DNA of 64,000 bases. Origin: Verrucomicrobiota bacterium. GTDB taxonomy: Bacteria > Verrucomicrobiota > Verrucomicrobiia > Limisphaerales > UBA1096. Every line of letters begins with the position of its first letter. The stretch's first letter is position 1. This document shows, piece by piece, positions 5,716 through 39,536 of the stretch. The stretch is taken from positions 1 through 64,000 of the forward strand of contig JASMKO010000073.1 of assembly GCA_030749225.1 (NCBI GenBank), given 5' to 3'. The position numbers were made by a program, and so were the translations under genes. The notes under the pieces were generated by a model. It had not been told where the DNA came from. It saw only the letters and a program-made list of their open reading frames with translations, and made no database searches.

Positions 5716-6675
5716 TCACGCCACCAGTGAGGCGAGGACTTTGCGGGTGCCCTTGAAGGTGCGACGGCCGTGCATGACGACGTAGTTGTCCATCAACGCG
5801 ATATCGCCGTTTCGCCAAAGGATGTCGAATGTCAACTCGTCGGCGATGGCGCTGGCTGCGGCAACGTCCGCCGGGCTCAGCGGACTGCCATCACCGAAAC
5901 GGATCGCCCGCGCCGGGTCATTGCGGGTGTCCTTCCAGCCGTTGAATGCCGCAATCAGTTGATTGAAGAAACTGGTTCGTCCGTTGGCCAATTGGCGCAC
6001 GGACGGGAGCAGAGGCGTGGTTACGGACAGGTCGCCGTTGGGCTTCCATTCCCACGTGTAGCCGAGCTTGGCCAAGCGCGCCTCGGCTGCCTCACGGTTG
6101 TCCACGCTGAAGGTGCTTTGCCAGCTGCGCCCCATCCCGGATGCGGTGTCGGCCACTCCCGGCATGACGTTGGTGTAGAGAAGTCCCCTGGCTTCGCAGT
6201 CGGCTGCGAACGCCCCTTGCTCCGCGCGGAGTCGCTCCCACAGAACGTCTGAGCGGCAAACCGGCGTGGCCCCGCCATCCTCCGCTGCGATTTGACAAAA
6301 GAAAATCAGTTTAGTCGGATGAAAAGGAGTCTGCGCCATCTCGTGGTGCAGGAAAATGGTGACGTCCGCCGGAGCCTCGTTGGCGGAAAACACGCGTGGC
6401 GTGTGGTTGATGCGGTAGGCGTTGGATAACGAGTCCGCATACGAGAAAGTCGGAAACCCAAGCGCGCACACGACCGCATCAAAATCCTCCGGCTTGGCCA
6501 AGGGCAGACCACGCACCAACACCACTCCATGCTCGCCCGCCTGCCGGGAGAGTTCCGCCACCGCCCCGGTCGCCCATGCACAAGCTTCGTCCAGCGACCC
6601 GGCCTCCACCTCAACCGCCAACGGAAACAATTGGCCATCGTATTCGTGCTGACCCGTAAGTGCGATTGGCTTCAT
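5716..6675 (-). CDS. TauD/TfdA-family Fe(II)/2-oxoglutarate dioxygenase
   Basis: The 319-residue protein has no signal peptide and is likely cytoplasmic. The facial-triad pattern of 2-oxoglutarate dioxygenases is visible: FLHHEMAQ gives H110-x-E112, and the distal histidine is H302 in YVVMHGRRTFKG, followed by the arginine-rich segment that normally binds 2-oxoglutarate (around R305-R311). FFNQLIAAFNGW near residue 235 is typical of the clavaminate synthase-like branch rather than of true taurine dioxygenases. The substrate therefore cannot be named and the symbol tauD is not warranted. It is the last gene of a likely unit with the sulfatase upstream; only 3 bp separate the start from that gene's stop. 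An oxidative role on a released sugar or small sulfonate would fit but is inference. Confidence 0.85.
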   Translation of the reverse strand: MKPIALTGQHEYDGQLFPLAVEVEAGSLDEACAWATGAVAELSRQAGEHGVVLVRGLPLAKPEDFDAVVCALGFPTFSYADSLSNAYRINHTPRVFSANEAPADVTIFLHHEMAQTPFHPTKLIFFCQIAAEDGGATPVCRSDVLWERLRAEQGAFAADCEARGLLYTNVMPGVADTASGMGRSWQSTFSVDNREAAEARLAKLGYTWEWKPNGDLSVTTPLLPSVRQLANGRTSFFNQLIAAFNGWKDTRNDPARAIRFGDGSPLSPADVAAASAIADELTFDILWRNGDIALMDNYVVMHGRRTFKGTRKVLASLVA

Positions 6676-24471: not shown

Positions 24472-25617
24472 CTACTTCAGAGGGTTTTCATACCAAACCA
24501 CGTTTTTGCTTTGCTGCCCGGCGATAAGGGTATCGAAATCGCCATCGGCATCCATATCCACAAGGCGGATGTCGTAGGCGGCCTGGTCGTCGTGGATGAT
24601 GTGGGTGGTAAACCTACCTTTTCCGTCATTCTCAAACCAGGCGGCCTTACGACTCACATAGGCGCAGGTGACGGCGTCGATGTCGCCATCGCCGTCGATG
24701 TCGCCCACCTGCAAGCAGTGTGAAGACAGGAGTTCAGTGTTGATGTCGTGAATTTTCCACCCGGGATTCTCGTACCAAATAAGGCCGGTTCCATGGCCGC
24801 GGCTGGCAACGATGTCCGGTTTACCGTCGCCGTTCACGTCCGCGGGAAGAATATTGGTCGCTCCAGGATGCTTACCCGGCAGCCGATGTTTCTTGAACGG
24901 CTTGGTCGGATCCTCTCCTGCCTCCCACCATGCAAACCATTCGCCCTTACCGGATTTGTCCGAAGATCCGCCCTTGGCGGCGAGGGTGATATCAAGTCGG
25001 CCGTCACCGTTGAGGTCGCCTGCCCCCAGATAGTGGCTCAGGCCGGGCGCGTCGTTCTTAGCAAAAACATGGCGTGTCCAGCGGTCGGCTTCATGTGGAT
25101 TTCTGGGCACCTCCAGCCACACGGCAGAATCGGGGAATCTCCCCCTCGGCTGGGCACTGTTGGCGAGAAGGTCAAGTTTGCCGTCACCGTTCACATCTGC
25201 CTTTAGCACGCCGTGGATGCCAATGATTTCGTCCTCGGCAATACGCACCTTCCATGGGCCGGCGGCTGCATTCTTGTTTGGTTGCTCGAACCATACAATG
25301 AGGCCGGGTTGATAGCGTGCTCCGATGAAATCCGCATCTCCGTCACCGTCCACGTCAAAGGTTTCACCGTGAATGAATGTATGATCCTTGTGATCTCCGA
25401 TAATAATCTCCTTCCAGTCCGGCGCGACAAACAGTCGAGTTTTGCCACCGGCATTGCTAATGACATCCACCTTGCCATCTCGGGTGAAGTCGGCCGCCAC
25501 CGCCACGTTGTTACGCAGTCCCTCCCAGACGACATGGCGTTTCCAATTGCCCTTCTCCGCGGCTTGTACGCTGCACAGGATGAGAGCTTGAATAAACAGA
25601 ATTCTTTGAATGTGCAT
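24472..25617 (-). CDS. FG-GAP/VCBS repeat protein, exported
   Basis: The protein is 381 residues long with a short Sec signal (ILFIQALILCSVQA). It consists almost wholly of FG-GAP/VCBS-type beta-propeller blades, each with a calcium-binding loop: DVDGDGDADFIG, DVNGDGKLDLLA, DLNGDGRLDITLA, DVNGDGKPDIVAS, DIDGDGDIDAVT and DMDADGDFDTLIA, plus a weaker DFTRDGKVDVIS. Seven loops fit a seven-bladed propeller. VWFEQPNKNA- and IWYENPGWKI-like strands between loops are the usual partner sequence. Such proteins bind ligands or other proteins at the surface and have no known catalysis. It lies 133 bp before the DUF1592 gene on the same strand. The upstream 344 bp separates it from a divergent hydrolase gene. 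Confidence 0.92.
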   Translation of the reverse strand: MHIQRILFIQALILCSVQAAEKGNWKRHVVWEGLRNNVAVAADFTRDGKVDVISNAGGKTRLFVAPDWKEIIIGDHKDHTFIHGETFDVDGDGDADFIGARYQPGLIVWFEQPNKNAAAGPWKVRIAEDEIIGIHGVLKADVNGDGKLDLLANSAQPRGRFPDSAVWLEVPRNPHEADRWTRHVFAKNDAPGLSHYLGAGDLNGDGRLDITLAAKGGSSDKSGKGEWFAWWEAGEDPTKPFKKHRLPGKHPGATNILPADVNGDGKPDIVASRGHGTGLIWYENPGWKIHDINTELLSSHCLQVGDIDGDGDIDAVTCAYVSRKAAWFENDGKGRFTTHIIHDDQAAYDIRLVDMDADGDFDTLIAGQQSKNVVWYENPLK

Positions 25618-33158: not shown

Positions 33159-34612
33159 TTAACGTTTGGGCGGATCATTCGTGGCACCGATCGTTTTTCG
33201 CCATGCGATGAGTTGGCTCAGCATCGCCTTGCCCTTGGCCAGTCGCTGCCCGGCGAGGTTCACTTTTTCGCTTGGGTCGTTGGCAAGGTTGTACAACTCG
33301 ATGGAATTGTCAGTGAAGTTTTCGATCAATTTCCAGTCGCCGTCACGAATCGCGCCACTTGAACGACCGCCTAGAAAGTGCGGTTTTTTGAGCGGGTAGT
33401 GCCAGTATAGTGGTCTGCGTTGAAGCCGGGTATCGGGCACTTTCCAGACGCTGAAGAGAGATGTTCCGTCTAATACCTGACGCTTGTCAGGCAGGGTGTC
33501 AGTCGCCGTGAGCAGGGTTGGATAATGGTCAATGTTTGCGGTGGGTTGGTGTGACACCTTGCCAACCGGGATTTCCTCTGGCCAACTGACGATGAGCGGG
33601 ATGCGGATGCCGCCCTCATAAAGCTGGCTCTTGCCTCCGCGCAACGGCGCGTTGGATGTCACGTTGGTTTCACCGCCGTTGTCCGAAGTGAAAATGACGA
33701 CCGTATTTTGGTCAAGGCCAAGCGCCTTCAGCTTGGCTGTGATTCGGCCAACGCCGTCGTCGATACTCTCGAGCATGCAGCCAGATGTGGGTTGTGGTCG
33801 CCGGCCCAGTGGTTTTGCGGATCGCCTGCGAGTGCGGCGTCCTGGCAGAGATAGCAGCGTTCGCGCGTATTTTTGCCGGGGCGATGCTTGGCGCGGTACT
33901 TGGCGACAAGCGCTGGCTTACCGTTGAGGATGGTATGCGGCGCGTAATGACTGAGGAACAGGAAGAACGGCTTGTCCCTGTTGCGCTCGATAAACTGCAC
34001 CGCCTCATGATTGAGGCGGTCGGTGAGGTACTCCCTGCGGCCCAGTTTTTGTTCCGGCAAATCCAGCCATCGAATCGGCTGCGAACGGAAGATATAAGGC
34101 CAAAAGTTTGCGCCGTTGCCCACTCCCTTGACCTCGCTACCGGTATTCCATTCGAATCCGTGATCAGTGGGGCGCACGACTTTTGTTGCACCATGGTAGC
34201 GGTAACCGGAGAGGTGCCACTTGCCGATCATGCCGGTGACGTAGCCGACTTCACGCAGTCGCTCGGGCAGGGTGACGTGGTCGGTCGATAGGCCGTTTTC
34301 CGAGTTGGGCCGAAGGTAGTCTAGAATACCGACCCTCACCGGGTATTGCCCGGTGAGCAACGCCGCGCGGTACGGTGAACAAACCGGGGCTGAAGCGTAG
34401 GCGTTGGTGAAACGGACGCCGCGTTTGGCCAAGCGATCGAGATGCGGCGTTTCGTTGAAGCGATTGCCGTAGCAACCCAGTTCTGCCCAGCCAAGGTCAT
34501 CAGCAAGGATGAAAATGATGTTGGGGCGCTTGGCCTGAAGGGCATTGAGAAAAGCCAAGGCGAACAGGGCACAAAGCCATCGCCATCGAACTGGGGTCAA
34601 GCGAAAACACAC
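33159..34612 (-). pseudogene. Sulfatase interrupted by a -1 frameshift
   Basis: Two overlapping frames make one sulfatase. The first (34612-33728, GTG start) has a Sec signal, RPNIIFILADDLGWAELGCY, catalytic CSPYRAALLTG (C78) and FLFLSHYAPHTILNGKP. The second (33776-33159) continues with MLESIDDGVGRITAKLKALG, VIFTSDNGGETNV and the tail YNLANDPSEKVNLAG. In intact relatives HNPHLAA is followed directly by MLESID, so one base is missing near 33775. There is no slippery heptamer at the site, so programmed frameshifting is unlikely; a recent mutation or a sequencing error are the choices. All active-site residues would be intact if the frame were restored. The GTG overlaps the upstream DUF1501 stop by one base (TAGTG). 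Confidence 0.85.
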
Positions 34613-35970
34613 TAGACGATCGGCAGTGGTTGGCCATCGCAGATGACATACGGCCGGTTGAGTTGATCGTGCAACTCGGCGTTGTGGTCAATGCCCATCG
34701 CCTTGTAGACCGTGGCATGGATGTCCGCCGGGCTGCAGGCGCCCGAGGCAGGCTCAATCCCCTTCGTATCGCTCGCTCCGTATACCTGGCCACCTTGGAT
34801 GCCGCCGCCGGCAAACGCCATCGAGTACACGCCGGGATGATGGTCCCGACCCCCGTTGCCGTTGACTTTCGGCGTGCGACCGAAATCGGTGAGGAACACC
34901 ACCAGCGTCTCGTCAAGCATGCCACGCATCTTGAGATCCGTAAGCAGTGCGGAAACGGCGCGGTCGAATACCGGCAGCAGCCGGTTTTTCATTTTGAAAA
35001 AATGATTGCGGTGCGTGTCCCAGTTGTCGCCACCGCCGCCCGCGAGATCGCCCGCGGAACAGACAGCCTGCACCACCGGCACACCGGCCTCAACCAGACG
35101 CCGTGCCAGCAGCAACGACTGGCCACCGATGTGGTCACCGTACATGTCGCGGATACGCTGATCCTCTGTCTCGAGGTCGTATGCCTCTCGAACCGGCGAG
35201 CCGAGCAGCATGTCGGCTGCCATCTGGCGATAGTAGTCGAGCTTCTCGTACGCGGTGGAGTCACCCAAACGCTGGCCAAGCGACTGGTCGAGTTGCTCAA
35301 GCAGGGTCAGGCGGTCGGAGATGCGCTCCTTCTCGAGGTTCAACTTGAGGTTGAGCGCGGGGTCATCGAAACGGCTCACGCCGCCATACGGTTCGCCGGC
35401 GGGTGTCCGCATAAGAATGGGATCGTACTTTCCGCCGAGCCAGCCGGCTCCTTCGCCGGCCATTTGGCGACCGTTGTCATACATCGAGTACGGCATCCGA
35501 ACAGCTCCAGGCACACCAGCAATCGGACGATGAAAATGGGAGATCACCGAGGTGATCGAAGGCCAGTTTTTTCGGCCCTTGGCATTGATCTGCCCCTCCG
35601 GTCGATGTCCGGTGAGGTTAAGGTAGACGGCACCTGAGTGGGCTCCGTCGTTGTGATGCACCGAGCGCACGATGGCGAGCTTGTTTGAGTGCTTGGCGAT
35701 CAAGGGAATGTGCTCACAAAATTGAACGCCCGGCGTCGCGGTCTTAATCGGCTTGAACTCGCCGCGGATATCGACTGGAGCCTCCGGCTTGGGGTCGAAC
35801 GACTCGTAGTGACTCATGCCACCCCAAGTATAGATGACGATGCAGGCCTTGGCTTTGCGCCGCCTAGGTATCGAAGCAGCCTGTGCCTTGAGAAATGTCG
35901 GTAGGGTCAACCCGGCCAACCCCACGCTGGAGCGGAGAAAATCTCTCCGTGTATGTCGCAGACACAGCAT
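34612..35970 (-). CDS. DUF1501 domain protein, Tat-exported (no cytochrome partner)
   Basis: The protein is 452 residues long. HTRRDFLRSSVGLAGLTLP is a Tat signal. DUF1501 motifs are ACIVIYTWGGMSHYESFDPK, GVQFCEHIPLIAKHSNKLA, IVRSVHHNDGAHSGAVYL and VVFLTDFGRTPKVN with GGRDHHPGVYSMAFAGGG. Unlike the DUF1501 genes at 1-1400 and 55911-57356, it has no PSD1 cytochrome next to it; instead it is coupled to a sulfatase. Function is unknown. Upstream, 66 bp separate it from the LRR-VHL gene on the same strand, so co-transcription is possible. Confidence 0.92.
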   Translation of the reverse strand: MLCLRHTRRDFLRSSVGLAGLTLPTFLKAQAASIPRRRKAKACIVIYTWGGMSHYESFDPKPEAPVDIRGEFKPIKTATPGVQFCEHIPLIAKHSNKLAIVRSVHHNDGAHSGAVYLNLTGHRPEGQINAKGRKNWPSITSVISHFHRPIAGVPGAVRMPYSMYDNGRQMAGEGAGWLGGKYDPILMRTPAGEPYGGVSRFDDPALNLKLNLEKERISDRLTLLEQLDQSLGQRLGDSTAYEKLDYYRQMAADMLLGSPVREAYDLETEDQRIRDMYGDHIGGQSLLLARRLVEAGVPVVQAVCSAGDLAGGGGDNWDTHRNHFFKMKNRLLPVFDRAVSALLTDLKMRGMLDETLVVFLTDFGRTPKVNGNGGRDHHPGVYSMAFAGGGIQGGQVYGASDTKGIEPASGACSPADIHATVYKAMGIDHNAELHDQLNRPYVICDGQPLPIV

Positions 35971-36036: not shown

Positions 36037-36906
36037 TTATCTTGGAATGATAGCCCGGGCGAATTCGCGGCCAGTCACGAAGTAACCCAGCGGCATGTCG
36101 CGCTGGTCCGCAACCATCCACACAGCGTCCTCGTAGGTATTCTGGCGACGCTCGTCGCCGGGCTCAATGATGCCGTAAAACATCGGTTTTCCTCCGTAGT
36201 CGATCCAGAACAACTTAACCGCCTTGTCGCGCTTGTTGATGAAGCGGATGATGGTGAACTCGCCGGTGATCGATTTGGCCGGCGGTTTCTCGTCGCCTCC
36301 ATCCTGCAGCCACTTGAGGTCGTGCTCCGGCTTGGGTTCCTCCTTCTTGACCGGTATGACCGTGGTGAGTTCGATACCCTTCTCGATTGAGATGGCGGGC
36401 AGTGCTTTTTTCAACTCGGCAATTCCATCATCGGTCACATCAGTCTGCCAAATGTAAAGCTGCCGGAGTTTTTTCAGCCCCGCCAGATGGTCGAGCGACT
36501 TGTCGGTGATCTTTGTGCCGTACAGGTTCAGGTACTCCAGCGCGTTCAGCCTGGCGAGGTTTGCGATGCCTTCATCGCCCACGTTTGTTCTCTCGAGGTG
36601 GAGTCGCGTGAGCTTTGCAAGGCCCTTGAGATGCACCAACCCGTCGCTGGTGATCTTCGTGTCGCGCAGGTTGAGCTCAACTACATTCCCGAGCTTGGCC
36701 ACATCCGCCAAGCCGGCATCAGTGAGGTCGCGTCCACGCAACTGGAATTGGATGTCCCACTGATTCTCACCCTCCGACGATGGCAAAACCAGGCCGCCGT
36801 TTTTCTTGATGGAATCGATGGCGGCCTGATCGTCCGCTTGGCCAAATGCTTGGCCAAATGCTTGGCCGCCGAGCATACCCGCAATGATGAGTAGGAGTCG
36901 GATCAT
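36037..36906 (-). CDS. Exported leucine-rich-repeat protein with C-terminal VHL-like beta domain
   Basis: ATG 36906 is preferred to the GTG at 36912. The protein has about 289 residues. The signal peptide MIRLLLIIAGMLGGQAFGQA runs into a GQAFGQA repeat encoded by tandem palindrome units. Residues of about 55-170 are leucine-rich repeats with the pattern LxxLxLxxTxITDxGLxxL (NVVELNLRDTKITSDGL, ALEYLNLYGTKITDKSL). After a charged linker (PVKKEEPKPEHDLKW), residues of about 215-280 match the beta domain of the von Hippel-Lindau protein: IRFINKRDKAVKLFWIDYGG, then EPGDERRQNTYEDAVWMV. Binding rather than catalysis is expected. It follows the sialidase-like lipoprotein gene by 11 bp, so the two may act together. 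Confidence 0.85.
   Translation of the reverse strand: MIRLLLIIAGMLGGQAFGQAFGQADDQAAIDSIKKNGGLVLPSSEGENQWDIQFQLRGRDLTDAGLADVAKLGNVVELNLRDTKITSDGLVHLKGLAKLTRLHLERTNVGDEGIANLARLNALEYLNLYGTKITDKSLDHLAGLKKLRQLYIWQTDVTDDGIAELKKALPAISIEKGIELTTVIPVKKEEPKPEHDLKWLQDGGDEKPPAKSITGEFTIIRFINKRDKAVKLFWIDYGGKPMFYGIIEPGDERRQNTYEDAVWMVADQRDMPLGYFVTGREFARAIIPR
36836..36867. repeat. Tandem 12-bp repeat of the palindrome core in a signal-peptide region
   Basis: Two and two-thirds copies of GCTTGGCCAAAT. They encode the GQAFGQA repeat at the signal-peptide end of the LRR-VHL protein. Confidence 0.9.
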
Positions 36907-36917
36907 CCCCACTTGGA

Positions 36918-38075
36918 CTAATTCAGGTAAGAGGGCAACTCGCCGTCACCGGTCTTGGTGCCGCCTTCCAAAATCCAAGCAAGGTTAAACTGGGCCACGG
37001 CGGAGCCGCCCTTAGGGCCTCCCTCAAAGTGGTGGATGATCACGCCCTCAGTGGCCGTGCCCGGCCGGCCGGAGGTCAGCGACGAGTAGGCGTGGGGGCC
37101 CTTGAAAACCAAGCGCTTGATCGGCCAGGTTTTGCCGCCGTCAAAGCTAGCCCATACGGTCCCCTTAACGCGACCGCTTGGGCTGTCGCAGTTGCTGTAA
37201 ATCAAAATATCCCGACCCTTCACGGCAAGTCGCGTCAGCCCACCCATGCAGCCGTAGTTGGTATTTTGCGGGCCGTCCGGCAAGGCATCGCAGTAGGTCA
37301 GGTTTTTCCAGATGTGACCGCCGTCTGTACTGGTCGCAGTCCAGCGTCGGCGCGGGTTGGCCCCTTCCTCCGCCCAGTGGCGGCGAGAGTTGTAGTAGAT
37401 TGTGCCGTCGCTCAGCTCCGCGATGGTAGCTTCGCCTGTGCCGTTAGCCGGAAACGGCTCGCTGGCCTGCCAGGATTTGCCACCGTCATCACTGTAGATG
37501 GCATTGGTGTAATGTTGCGGCCATTTGCTGCGGTCGTTCTTACCGGCGTACCAACGAGAAGGGCGAATCAACCGGCCCTTGTGTTCGCCGTGGCGCAGGG
37601 TAATGCCGTGCTCGTTCATATGCATCGACGGGTCGTTGCCCTTGGAGTCCGGCTTAATGTTGGTTTCGATCTTGTTCCACGTTTTGCCGTCGTCGCTGCT
37701 GACGTATACATGTATCGGGGCCGGCGGATGGCGATCCTCGACGAATGCAATGATGTCGCCATTGTCTTCGTTTACCGTCAGGCCGCCGGTCTGAAAACCT
37801 GGCTTGGCGATTACAATTTCCGGCCCCCAGGTTTGACCCCCATCCTCACTGCGCCGCGCGCGGACGTGGCCCGTGCCCCATGTGGCGATGATTGTTCCTT
37901 CCATCGACACTACGACGTTCCCGAAACGTTCGCCGGAAAACAGCGGCTGGAGATCGAATTTCGCTTCGCCGAGATGGGGTTTCAACGAACCCTCAACCTT
38001 TGAAGACAGCTGAAGGTGCCTGCATCCCGTCAGAAGGGTGCAGGCGACAGTGAACAGTAGTACAGTTTTTTTCAT
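36918..38075 (-). CDS. Sialidase-like (BNR/Asp-box) lipoprotein
   Basis: ATG 38075 is chosen because it begins the lipoprotein signal KKTVLLFTVACTLLTGC, with the lipobox LTGC. The remaining 360 or so residues form a six-bladed propeller with five Asp boxes: SEDGGQTWG, SDDGKTWNK, SDDGGKSWQ, STDGGHIWK and SFDGGKTWP. The conserved arginine region LIRPSRWYAGKND and the tyrosine-rich C-terminal part are compatible with GH33-like sialidases, but sulfatase-associated BNR proteins often act on other sugars or only bind. It is probably anchored in the outer membrane. The stop lies 11 bp before the LRR-VHL start, so the two are likely co-transcribed. Confidence 0.85.
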   Translation of the reverse strand: MKKTVLLFTVACTLLTGCRHLQLSSKVEGSLKPHLGEAKFDLQPLFSGERFGNVVVSMEGTIIATWGTGHVRARRSEDGGQTWGPEIVIAKPGFQTGGLTVNEDNGDIIAFVEDRHPPAPIHVYVSSDDGKTWNKIETNIKPDSKGNDPSMHMNEHGITLRHGEHKGRLIRPSRWYAGKNDRSKWPQHYTNAIYSDDGGKSWQASEPFPANGTGEATIAELSDGTIYYNSRRHWAEEGANPRRRWTATSTDGGHIWKNLTYCDALPDGPQNTNYGCMGGLTRLAVKGRDILIYSNCDSPSGRVKGTVWASFDGGKTWPIKRLVFKGPHAYSSLTSGRPGTATEGVIIHHFEGGPKGGSAVAQFNLAWILEGGTKTGDGELPSYLN

Positions 38076-38158
38076 GTGATAATAAATGCGTTCGCAAATG
38101 ATGCCCAAGCGGCATCGGATGGCAATTGGAAAATACGATTGAGACTTTGGAGTTAAGG

Positions 38159-39487
38159 TTAATCCGCCTCCGTTTTGCCAAGCGGGATGGACATCGACCG
38201 GATGCTGGCCAGGCGTTGCTCGGCCAATGCCTGCATGGACTTCAAACGCCTGGGGTATTGTTGGCTCAGGTCGTTTTTCTCCTCAATATCGTTGGCCAAA
38301 TGGAACAGCGCCGGGCCGGTGCCTTTCAACTTGGCATGGCGGCAGTCGGGAAACAGCTTCCAGTCGCCCACACGAATAGCCTCAAATCCGTTCGAACCGT
38401 GCCAGTAAAGCAGGTCGTTGCGGGGATGTTTTGTCGCTTGGCCAAGCAGCGTGCCCCATACGTTCACGCCGTCAATGGGTACGGAATGAGGGTTGCGCTT
38501 GGCCAGGTCAATACGACAAACGTGTGTCAGCGTGGGCAGTAGATCCATCGCTGAAATCATCGCATCAATCTCGCGGCCAGCGGGAAGGACACCCGGCCAA
38601 TTGAGAATGCACGGCACGCGGGTGCCGCCCTCGAGCGAACTCCATTTTTTGCCACGGAACGGCTTGGCCAACGACTCCTTGGTCAGCGGTTCCGGCCCGT
38701 TGTCGGAGCAGAAGATAACAAGCGTTTTCTTCTCCAGTCCCTCGGCTTTGAGAGTATCCAGAATCTCGCCAATGCGGGCGTCCATCTCCTCGACGACATC
38801 GCCGTAGACGCCAAAGTCGGATTTGCCCTCCCAGTCCGGGTGCGGCTCAACCGGGAAGTGCGGTGCCGAATAGGGCAGGTACAGGAAGAACGGCTTGGCC
38901 TTGTTCGCCCGAATGAAGTCGATCGCCTCGCGGGTGAATTTTTCCGTCAGCAACCGATTCTCATACGGCTTCTCGAGCAACTTGTCGCCACGCCATAGTT
39001 CATCGGTTTGGTTGTTGCTTTTGTTAATGTAAAACGTGCGGCCAAAACCCTGCCGATGCGGCCGGAAAGGCCGCCGATCGCCAAGGTGCCACTTGCCAGA
39101 CATGGCTGTTTGATAACCGGCAGACCTGAAGCGCTCGGCCATTGTCACCGCCCTTGGACTCAGGCCGTGGGCGGTGGAGAGGATGTGCCCAACGACCCCC
39201 TTGCTCCAGCCAAGCCGGGTGGGATACGAGCCGGTCATCAGCGCCATCCGCGATGGTGTACAGACAGTTGCACCGGCATAAAACGCGGTCAGCTTCACGC
39301 CACGCTTGGCCAGGCGGTCGAGAACTGGTGTTTTGATTTTCGGATGCCCATAGCTGCCAAGGTCGTGGTAGCCAAGATCATCCGCCATGATCAAAACCAC
39401 ATTCGGTCGCTCGGCAACGGTCTGGCCTGCAGCCTGGCCAAGCATAGCCCAAGCAAATAGCAAAACAGTTGGGAGAATTCTTTTCAT
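38159..39487 (-). CDS. Sulfatase
   Basis: ATG 39487 starts a Sec signal (RILPTVLLFAWAMLGQAAGQ) that includes LGQA from a degenerate tandem palindrome. PNVVLIMADDLGYHDLGSYG gives the metal-binding aspartates, CTPSRMALMTGSYPTRLG the formylglycine cysteine C76, and MSGKWHLGDRRPFRPHRQGF and FCSDNGPEPLTKES the rest of the S1 active site. The C-terminus ends normally (LANDIEEKNDLSQQ). Length is about 442 residues. It is followed by the sialidase/LRR-VHL genes after 83 bp and preceded by a DUF1080 gene at 49 bp, all minus strand. The substrate is unknown. Confidence 0.93.
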   Translation of the reverse strand: MKRILPTVLLFAWAMLGQAAGQTVAERPNVVLIMADDLGYHDLGSYGHPKIKTPVLDRLAKRGVKLTAFYAGATVCTPSRMALMTGSYPTRLGWSKGVVGHILSTAHGLSPRAVTMAERFRSAGYQTAMSGKWHLGDRRPFRPHRQGFGRTFYINKSNNQTDELWRGDKLLEKPYENRLLTEKFTREAIDFIRANKAKPFFLYLPYSAPHFPVEPHPDWEGKSDFGVYGDVVEEMDARIGEILDTLKAEGLEKKTLVIFCSDNGPEPLTKESLAKPFRGKKWSSLEGGTRVPCILNWPGVLPAGREIDAMISAMDLLPTLTHVCRIDLAKRNPHSVPIDGVNVWGTLLGQATKHPRNDLLYWHGSNGFEAIRVGDWKLFPDCRHAKLKGTGPALFHLANDIEEKNDLSQQYPRRLKSMQALAEQRLASIRSMSIPLGKTEAD

Positions 39488-39536
39488 CCGGTCACCTCGC
39501 CGAGATACGACAAACCCTTCAACAGCCAACGCCATT

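Follow-up and report, generated by a model that had tools for sequence, protein, structure and literature searches.

A bacterial leucine-rich-repeat protein ending in a VHL-type beta domain, and the putative hydroxyproline-binding family to which that domain belongs

The LRR-VHL gene and its conserved neighbours

The window considered here is a stretch of 64,000 nucleotides (contig JASMKO010000073.1 of assembly GCA_030749225.1) from a Verrucomicrobiota bacterium. The gene that we call LRR-VHL lies on its minus strand (36037..36912, 291 codons counted from a GTG, the ATG at 36906 being the likely start) and encodes, in this order, a hydrophobic N-terminus, leucine-rich repeats, a charged proline-rich linker and a VHL beta domain. 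Inspection of the N-terminus (36841..36906, minus strand; MIRLLLIIAGMLGGQAFGQA) points to a signal peptide that has no lipobox cysteine, and the protein is thus probably exported. The repeats (36430..36702, minus strand) match the Pfam families LRR_8 (2.3e-9), LRR_4 (3.6e-8), LRR_6 and LRR_14, and the VHL domain (36040..36258, minus strand) is of the type in which histidine 115 of human pVHL is replaced by alanine (W..Y..T..A.W). An earlier note on this DNA had drawn attention to the segment 36067-36264, which is the C-terminal third of the gene (36912-36037, minus strand); its coordinates and the peptides that it quoted are correct. Orthologues with 59-82% identity were found in 11 related genomes.

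The gene directly upstream (36918..38108, minus strand) encodes a BNR sialidase-like protein by Pfam, as the earlier note had proposed for this neighbour, and the gene directly downstream (34612..35970, minus strand) a DUF1501 protein. In 10 of the 11 orthologous loci LRR-VHL is preceded by the BNR gene, and again in 10 of the 11 the DUF1501 gene comes after it; loci from two other genera of the order are among these. Also encoded around LRR-VHL are a 3-keto-disaccharide hydrolase-type protein, a BD-FAE esterase and sulfatases, one of which (38159..39535, minus strand) belongs to the conserved operon. One sulfatase gene (33159..34612, minus strand) is present here as two overlapping frames and is intact in orthologous loci, with a single ORF in L117, L119, L121, L124 and L125; the split is a frameshift or an assembly error. 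Elsewhere in the window, an FG-GAP repeat protein (24472-25617, minus strand) has a dockerin-type match. No hydroxyproline catabolic genes were recognised among the part of the window's ORFs that was scanned.

The earlier note had also remarked on a 2-oxoglutarate dioxygenase encoded in the same window. A link between it and the VHL domain was not borne out, as the enzyme is a TauD/TfdA-family protein (5716-6675) located 30 kb from LRR-VHL, and the window's genome (about 80% complete) has no match to 2OG-FeII_Oxy_3 (PF13640). An endogenous prolyl hydroxylase was rejected as an explanation of the VHL family as a whole, PF13640 being matched in only 18 of 146 relatives and not in the 80% or so of the window's own genome that is present.

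The VHL fold and its pocket

The Pfam VHL profile (PF01847) matches residues 223-270 of the LRR-VHL protein (36246-36103) with an E-value of 3e-8 and 34 bits, above the gathering cut-off of 21 bits, and the protein scored 36.3 bits in the genome-wide profile search. When the sequence was compared with PDB chains by phmmer, 24 pVHL sequences ranked first (E-values from 4e-5 to 6e-4). The AlphaFold model of the domain (residues 219-291 approximately, 36258-36040) has a mean pLDDT of about 95 and seven strands; its top 50 Foldseek matches are pVHL throughout (E-value about 1e-6), with no other beta-sandwich ahead, and VIA-align superposes it on pVHL 62-153 with a Z-score of 12.4 and an rmsd of 1.5 Å over 82 residues. 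Profile and model together confirm that this probably exported protein ends in a genuine VHL-type beta domain, as the earlier note had suspected from the sequence.

The window domain shares with the human pVHL beta domain (PF01847; PDB 1lm8, 1lqb, 4awj) its fold and seven strands, the equivalents of W88, Y98 and W117, and Y112, but differs from it in having Thr for Ser111 and Ala for His115 and in forming part of an exported bacterial LRR fusion that lacks the alpha domain and elongin-binding segment of the human protein. In both sequence and model, the LRR-VHL protein stops at the last beta strand; a role as E3 substrate receptor was ruled out by the missing alpha domain.

The hydroxyproline site of pVHL is lined by Trp88, Tyr98, His110, Ser111, His115 and Trp117, and the 4-hydroxyl is held by Ser111 and His115 (PMC9528729, PMC6650433). 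In the alignment, the residues of the window protein at these six positions are Trp, Tyr, Asn, Thr, Ala and Trp. Of the pocket residues that the earlier note had wished to see checked (Trp, Tyr, Ser, His), those of the aromatic cage (W88, Y98, W117) are retained both here and in every LRR-VHL orthologue. The pair that binds the hydroxyl is not: Ser111 is replaced by Thr, and His115 by an Ala common to all orthologues, so that on the alignment this pair is half lost. The window's genus is also nearly devoid of hydroxyproline epimerase, PF05544 being found in only one of its 21 genomes, and that one without VHL. Given the loss of His115 and this genomic context, together with the TauD-type nature of the 2-oxoglutarate enzyme, hydroxyproline recognition by the window copy, which the earlier note had offered as speculation, is not supported.

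For the wider family, we measured conservation in 102 distinct bacterial VHL domains gathered without any motif filter. Among the ten best-conserved columns are W88 (101/102), W117 (99/101), S/T111 (101/102), Y98 (94/102) and position 115, where 78 of the 102 domains have His, the 24 others Ala, and none any other residue. Columns 88, 98, 111 and 117 have a mean entropy of 0.29 bits, compared with 2.08 over all columns (P 1e-4 against random columns). The Ala115 domains form one clade (support 99/85, recovered in 99% of bootstrap trees) that includes the LRR-VHL proteins, C-terminal domains of sulfatases, a SASA fusion and one C-terminal DPP-IV fusion. A single loss of His115 would be the simplest reading of this tree, the root of which is not fixed. 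Human VHL sits on a long branch with no settled place among the bacterial domains, and we therefore claim no direction of transfer.

Hosts and genomic neighbours of the bacterial domains

The window's genome encodes two further VHL domains, one ending a sulfatase and one inside a DPP-IV-like peptidase. Pfam VHL was found in 67 of 146 close relatives and in 19 of 289 genomes across the phylum. The mixed VHL alignment contains no stretch conserved enough for a scan of the whole collection, and a motif of the DPP-IV subset was used instead; it matched 269 stretches in 84,980 species, a set biased to that subset and from which nothing is concluded on His115. Among the 80 matches listed, most belong to MAGs of Verrucomicrobiota, Planctomycetota, Armatimonadota and Lentisphaerae. 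Two MAG records with a DPP-IV-VHL gene (L142 and L175) are titled Klebsiella pneumoniae and Akkermansia muciniphila, titles that look wrong.

The majority hosts of the domain are DPP-IV-like S9 peptidases; others are sulfatases, SASA esterases, DUF885 proteins and a metallopeptidase-like family with a HEFAH motif, and the domain is also met in kinase, ankyrin and LRR proteins and in small stand-alone secreted proteins. Members of the HEFAHxxH family (L129:5199-6422, L134:2995-4149, L109, L065, L076, L107) are about 400 residues long and carry the VHL domain at their C-terminus, and the enzyme part has no Pfam match in the members scanned. One protein (L069:1678-3948) combines a Ser/Thr kinase, a VHL domain and Sel1 repeats, and an exported protein of 1526 residues (L116, G235:C2:114500-123500) has four or five VHL-like repeats and, after them, a region that looks MACPF-like by eye. 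A secreted protein of Litorilituus sediminis, EMK97_00595, has likewise been annotated with a VHL beta domain (PMC9002001); as described in the relevant part of that paper, it is a single hypothetical protein read in terms of the tumour suppressor, and, unlike the family described here, it is presented there with no mention of an LRR, a peptidase fusion or a hydroxyproline cluster. Our literature search, which reached few of the subscription journals, returned no paper tying bacterial VHL to hydroxyproline.

The inserted VHL domains of the DPP-IV-like peptidases (e.g. L140 and L132, and G000:C57 in the window's own genome) are homologous to the window domain, but they keep His115 and are placed inside the propeller part of an active-looking S9 peptidase instead of at the C-terminus. 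In the model of L140 (mean pLDDT 88), the domain (residues 175-247 approximately) is inserted between propeller strands with low-confidence linkers on its flanks, and the rest of the protein resembles prolyl tripeptidyl aminopeptidase and DPP8/9 (Z-score about 32). These relatives match DPPIV_N and Peptidase_S9 in Pfam; since GxSAGG is present in 70 of the 80 matches listed and the Asp and His motifs are kept, they are likely to be active exported prolyl peptidases.

We looked for members of the proline racemase/hydroxyproline epimerase family (PF05544) in the 146 relatives and in 50 further genomes taken from the motif scan. In nine genomes of the two sets together, a VHL gene and a 4-hydroxyproline epimerase gene are within 10 kb of each other, often in a trans-4-hydroxyproline catabolic cluster. 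Among the relatives, 6 of 37 genomes have the two genes this close, at distances of 3-7 kb (expected 0.17, Poisson P 3e-8), and among the 50 further genomes, 27 have an epimerase, within 10 kb of VHL in three of the 27 (expected 0.11, P 2e-4), counts that are not fully independent as G310 and G368 are of one genus. One more epimerase of the motif-scan genomes is 18 kb from VHL. The single-copy gene PGK, used as a negative control, came as close to VHL (within 10 kb) once in 37 genomes. With NCBIfam models, the epimerases score 411-431 bits as 4-hydroxyproline epimerase against 212-214 as proline racemase, slightly below the strict equivalog cut-offs.

Recurrent members of these clusters are a DAO-type D-amino acid dehydrogenase, a DHDPS-family protein and an aldehyde dehydrogenase (Aldedh). 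Together with the epimerase, these are the genes for the four steps described for trans-4-hydroxyproline catabolism (4HypE, DAO, DHDPS-like protein and aldehyde dehydrogenase; eLife 2014;3:e03275), so that the same four genes adjoin VHL genes in the relatives; no such cluster stands beside the window gene, and the pathway description drawn on here from that study does not mention VHL domains. In G394, a co-directional run comprises, in this order, a VHL-metallopeptidase-like gene, two VHL-sulfatases and genes for the DHDPS-like protein, the epimerase, a DUF885 protein and DAO. Other cluster neighbours are POT oligopeptide symporters, Xaa-Pro aminopeptidase and GH127 beta-L-arabinofuranosidase. 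Volvocine green algae possess sulfated, arabinosylated hydroxyproline-rich glycoproteins (HRGPs; PMC9818292), and algal HRGPs of this kind as cluster substrate would fit the gene set.

Genome-level co-occurrence of VHL and epimerase is modest (odds 2.3, P 0.019 outside the window's own genus; overall not significant), and the case therefore rests on physical clustering. DPP-IV genes without VHL also adjoin the epimerase in G430 (G430:C27:160168-164902) and G439. This suggests that prolyl peptidases join hydroxyproline clusters with or without VHL, and the linkage may thus follow the peptidase as much as, or rather than, the VHL domain.

Candidate ligands and roles

When moved from the window copy to its relatives, the hydroxyproline idea of the earlier note gains strong support from a full pocket, fusions to prolyl peptidases and repeated hydroxyproline-cluster neighbours, and for the bacterial family at large putative hydroxyproline binding is the reading that fits best. 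Tentatively, and aware that it could well be wrong, we propose that the VHL beta domains of bacteria genuinely recognise hydroxyproline and would steer exported prolyl peptidases, sulfatases and esterases to proteins rich in hydroxyproline, for example collagen or the sulfated HRGPs of algae or plants, the Ala115 clade having been retuned to another form of proline. The His115 version in DPP-IV-like peptidases would most likely bind extracellular proteins at their hydroxyproline (or proline) residues and bring substrate to the prolyl peptidase, thereby feeding trans-4-hydroxyproline catabolism. On this view, the window gene would encode an exported binding protein of two domains, an LRR joined to a VHL-type beta domain from this family of secreted modules. 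With the cage and Thr111 kept and the histidine that holds the 4-hydroxyl lost, its domain may bind proline, either plain or carrying a substituent (for example O-glycosylated), on sulfated or sialylated glycoproteins, which it could tether to the sulfatase/BNR machinery of its own operon. We accordingly read the window LRR-VHL as a derived Ala115 binding module, with a putative ligand, of an operon for the use of sulfated or sialylated glycans or glycoproteins. The combined proposal, of peptidase-serving His115 domains and a glycoprotein-tethering Ala115 copy, is held with somewhat less than even confidence.

In animals, pVHL acts as the central receptor for oxygen sensing, and it also serves as a leading scaffold in targeted protein degradation. 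If the proposal is true, its hydroxyproline pocket would be an older nutritional module, later used by animals for oxygen sensing. Because the same pocket recurs in a large bacterial family, the origin of hydroxyproline recognition can be tested directly on small, soluble domains, and the His115 and Ala115 versions provide a natural series for dissecting specificity; it is this family-level result, rather than the window copy, that merits follow-up.

The aromatic pocket residues may, against the main proposal, be conserved partly for folding, and the domain could even be a generic structural or protein-protein module that has no ligand. We regard such a module as rather unlikely. It would agree with the way in which the domain is joined promiscuously to numerous unrelated secreted proteins, as well as to a kinase and ankyrin repeats, and with N78, F76 and G93, which are as conserved as the pocket columns and of which only F76, at the pocket rim, is listed as a hydroxyproline contact in the sources; however, His115, itself part of the pocket, is invariant within the His group while adjacent surface positions vary, and hydroxyproline gene clusters would not be expected around a purely structural domain.

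It is unlikely, again, that Thr111 and the aromatic cage still allow the Ala115 domain to bind hydroxyproline, the LRR protein then capturing hydroxyproline-rich glycoproteins. Four of five pocket positions are kept, the change from Ser to Thr is conservative, Ala115 sulfatase-VHL genes lie inside the hydroxyproline catabolic clusters of G394 and G324, and the green-algal HRGPs (PMC9818292) match the sulfatase and GH127 neighbours. Yet the whole clade is without His115, 20 of the 21 genomes of the window's genus are without the epimerase, and both clusters also hold a VHL-type domain with His (a strong match in G394, a weak one in G324). It is quite improbable that the domain is an accessory module by which sulfatases and esterases bind carbohydrate or mucin, with no functional relation to hydroxyproline: such a module would suit the sulfatase and SASA esterase hosts and an operon rich in sulfatase and BNR genes, but not a family whose majority architecture is a prolyl peptidase and which has hydroxyproline catabolic neighbours in several genomes.
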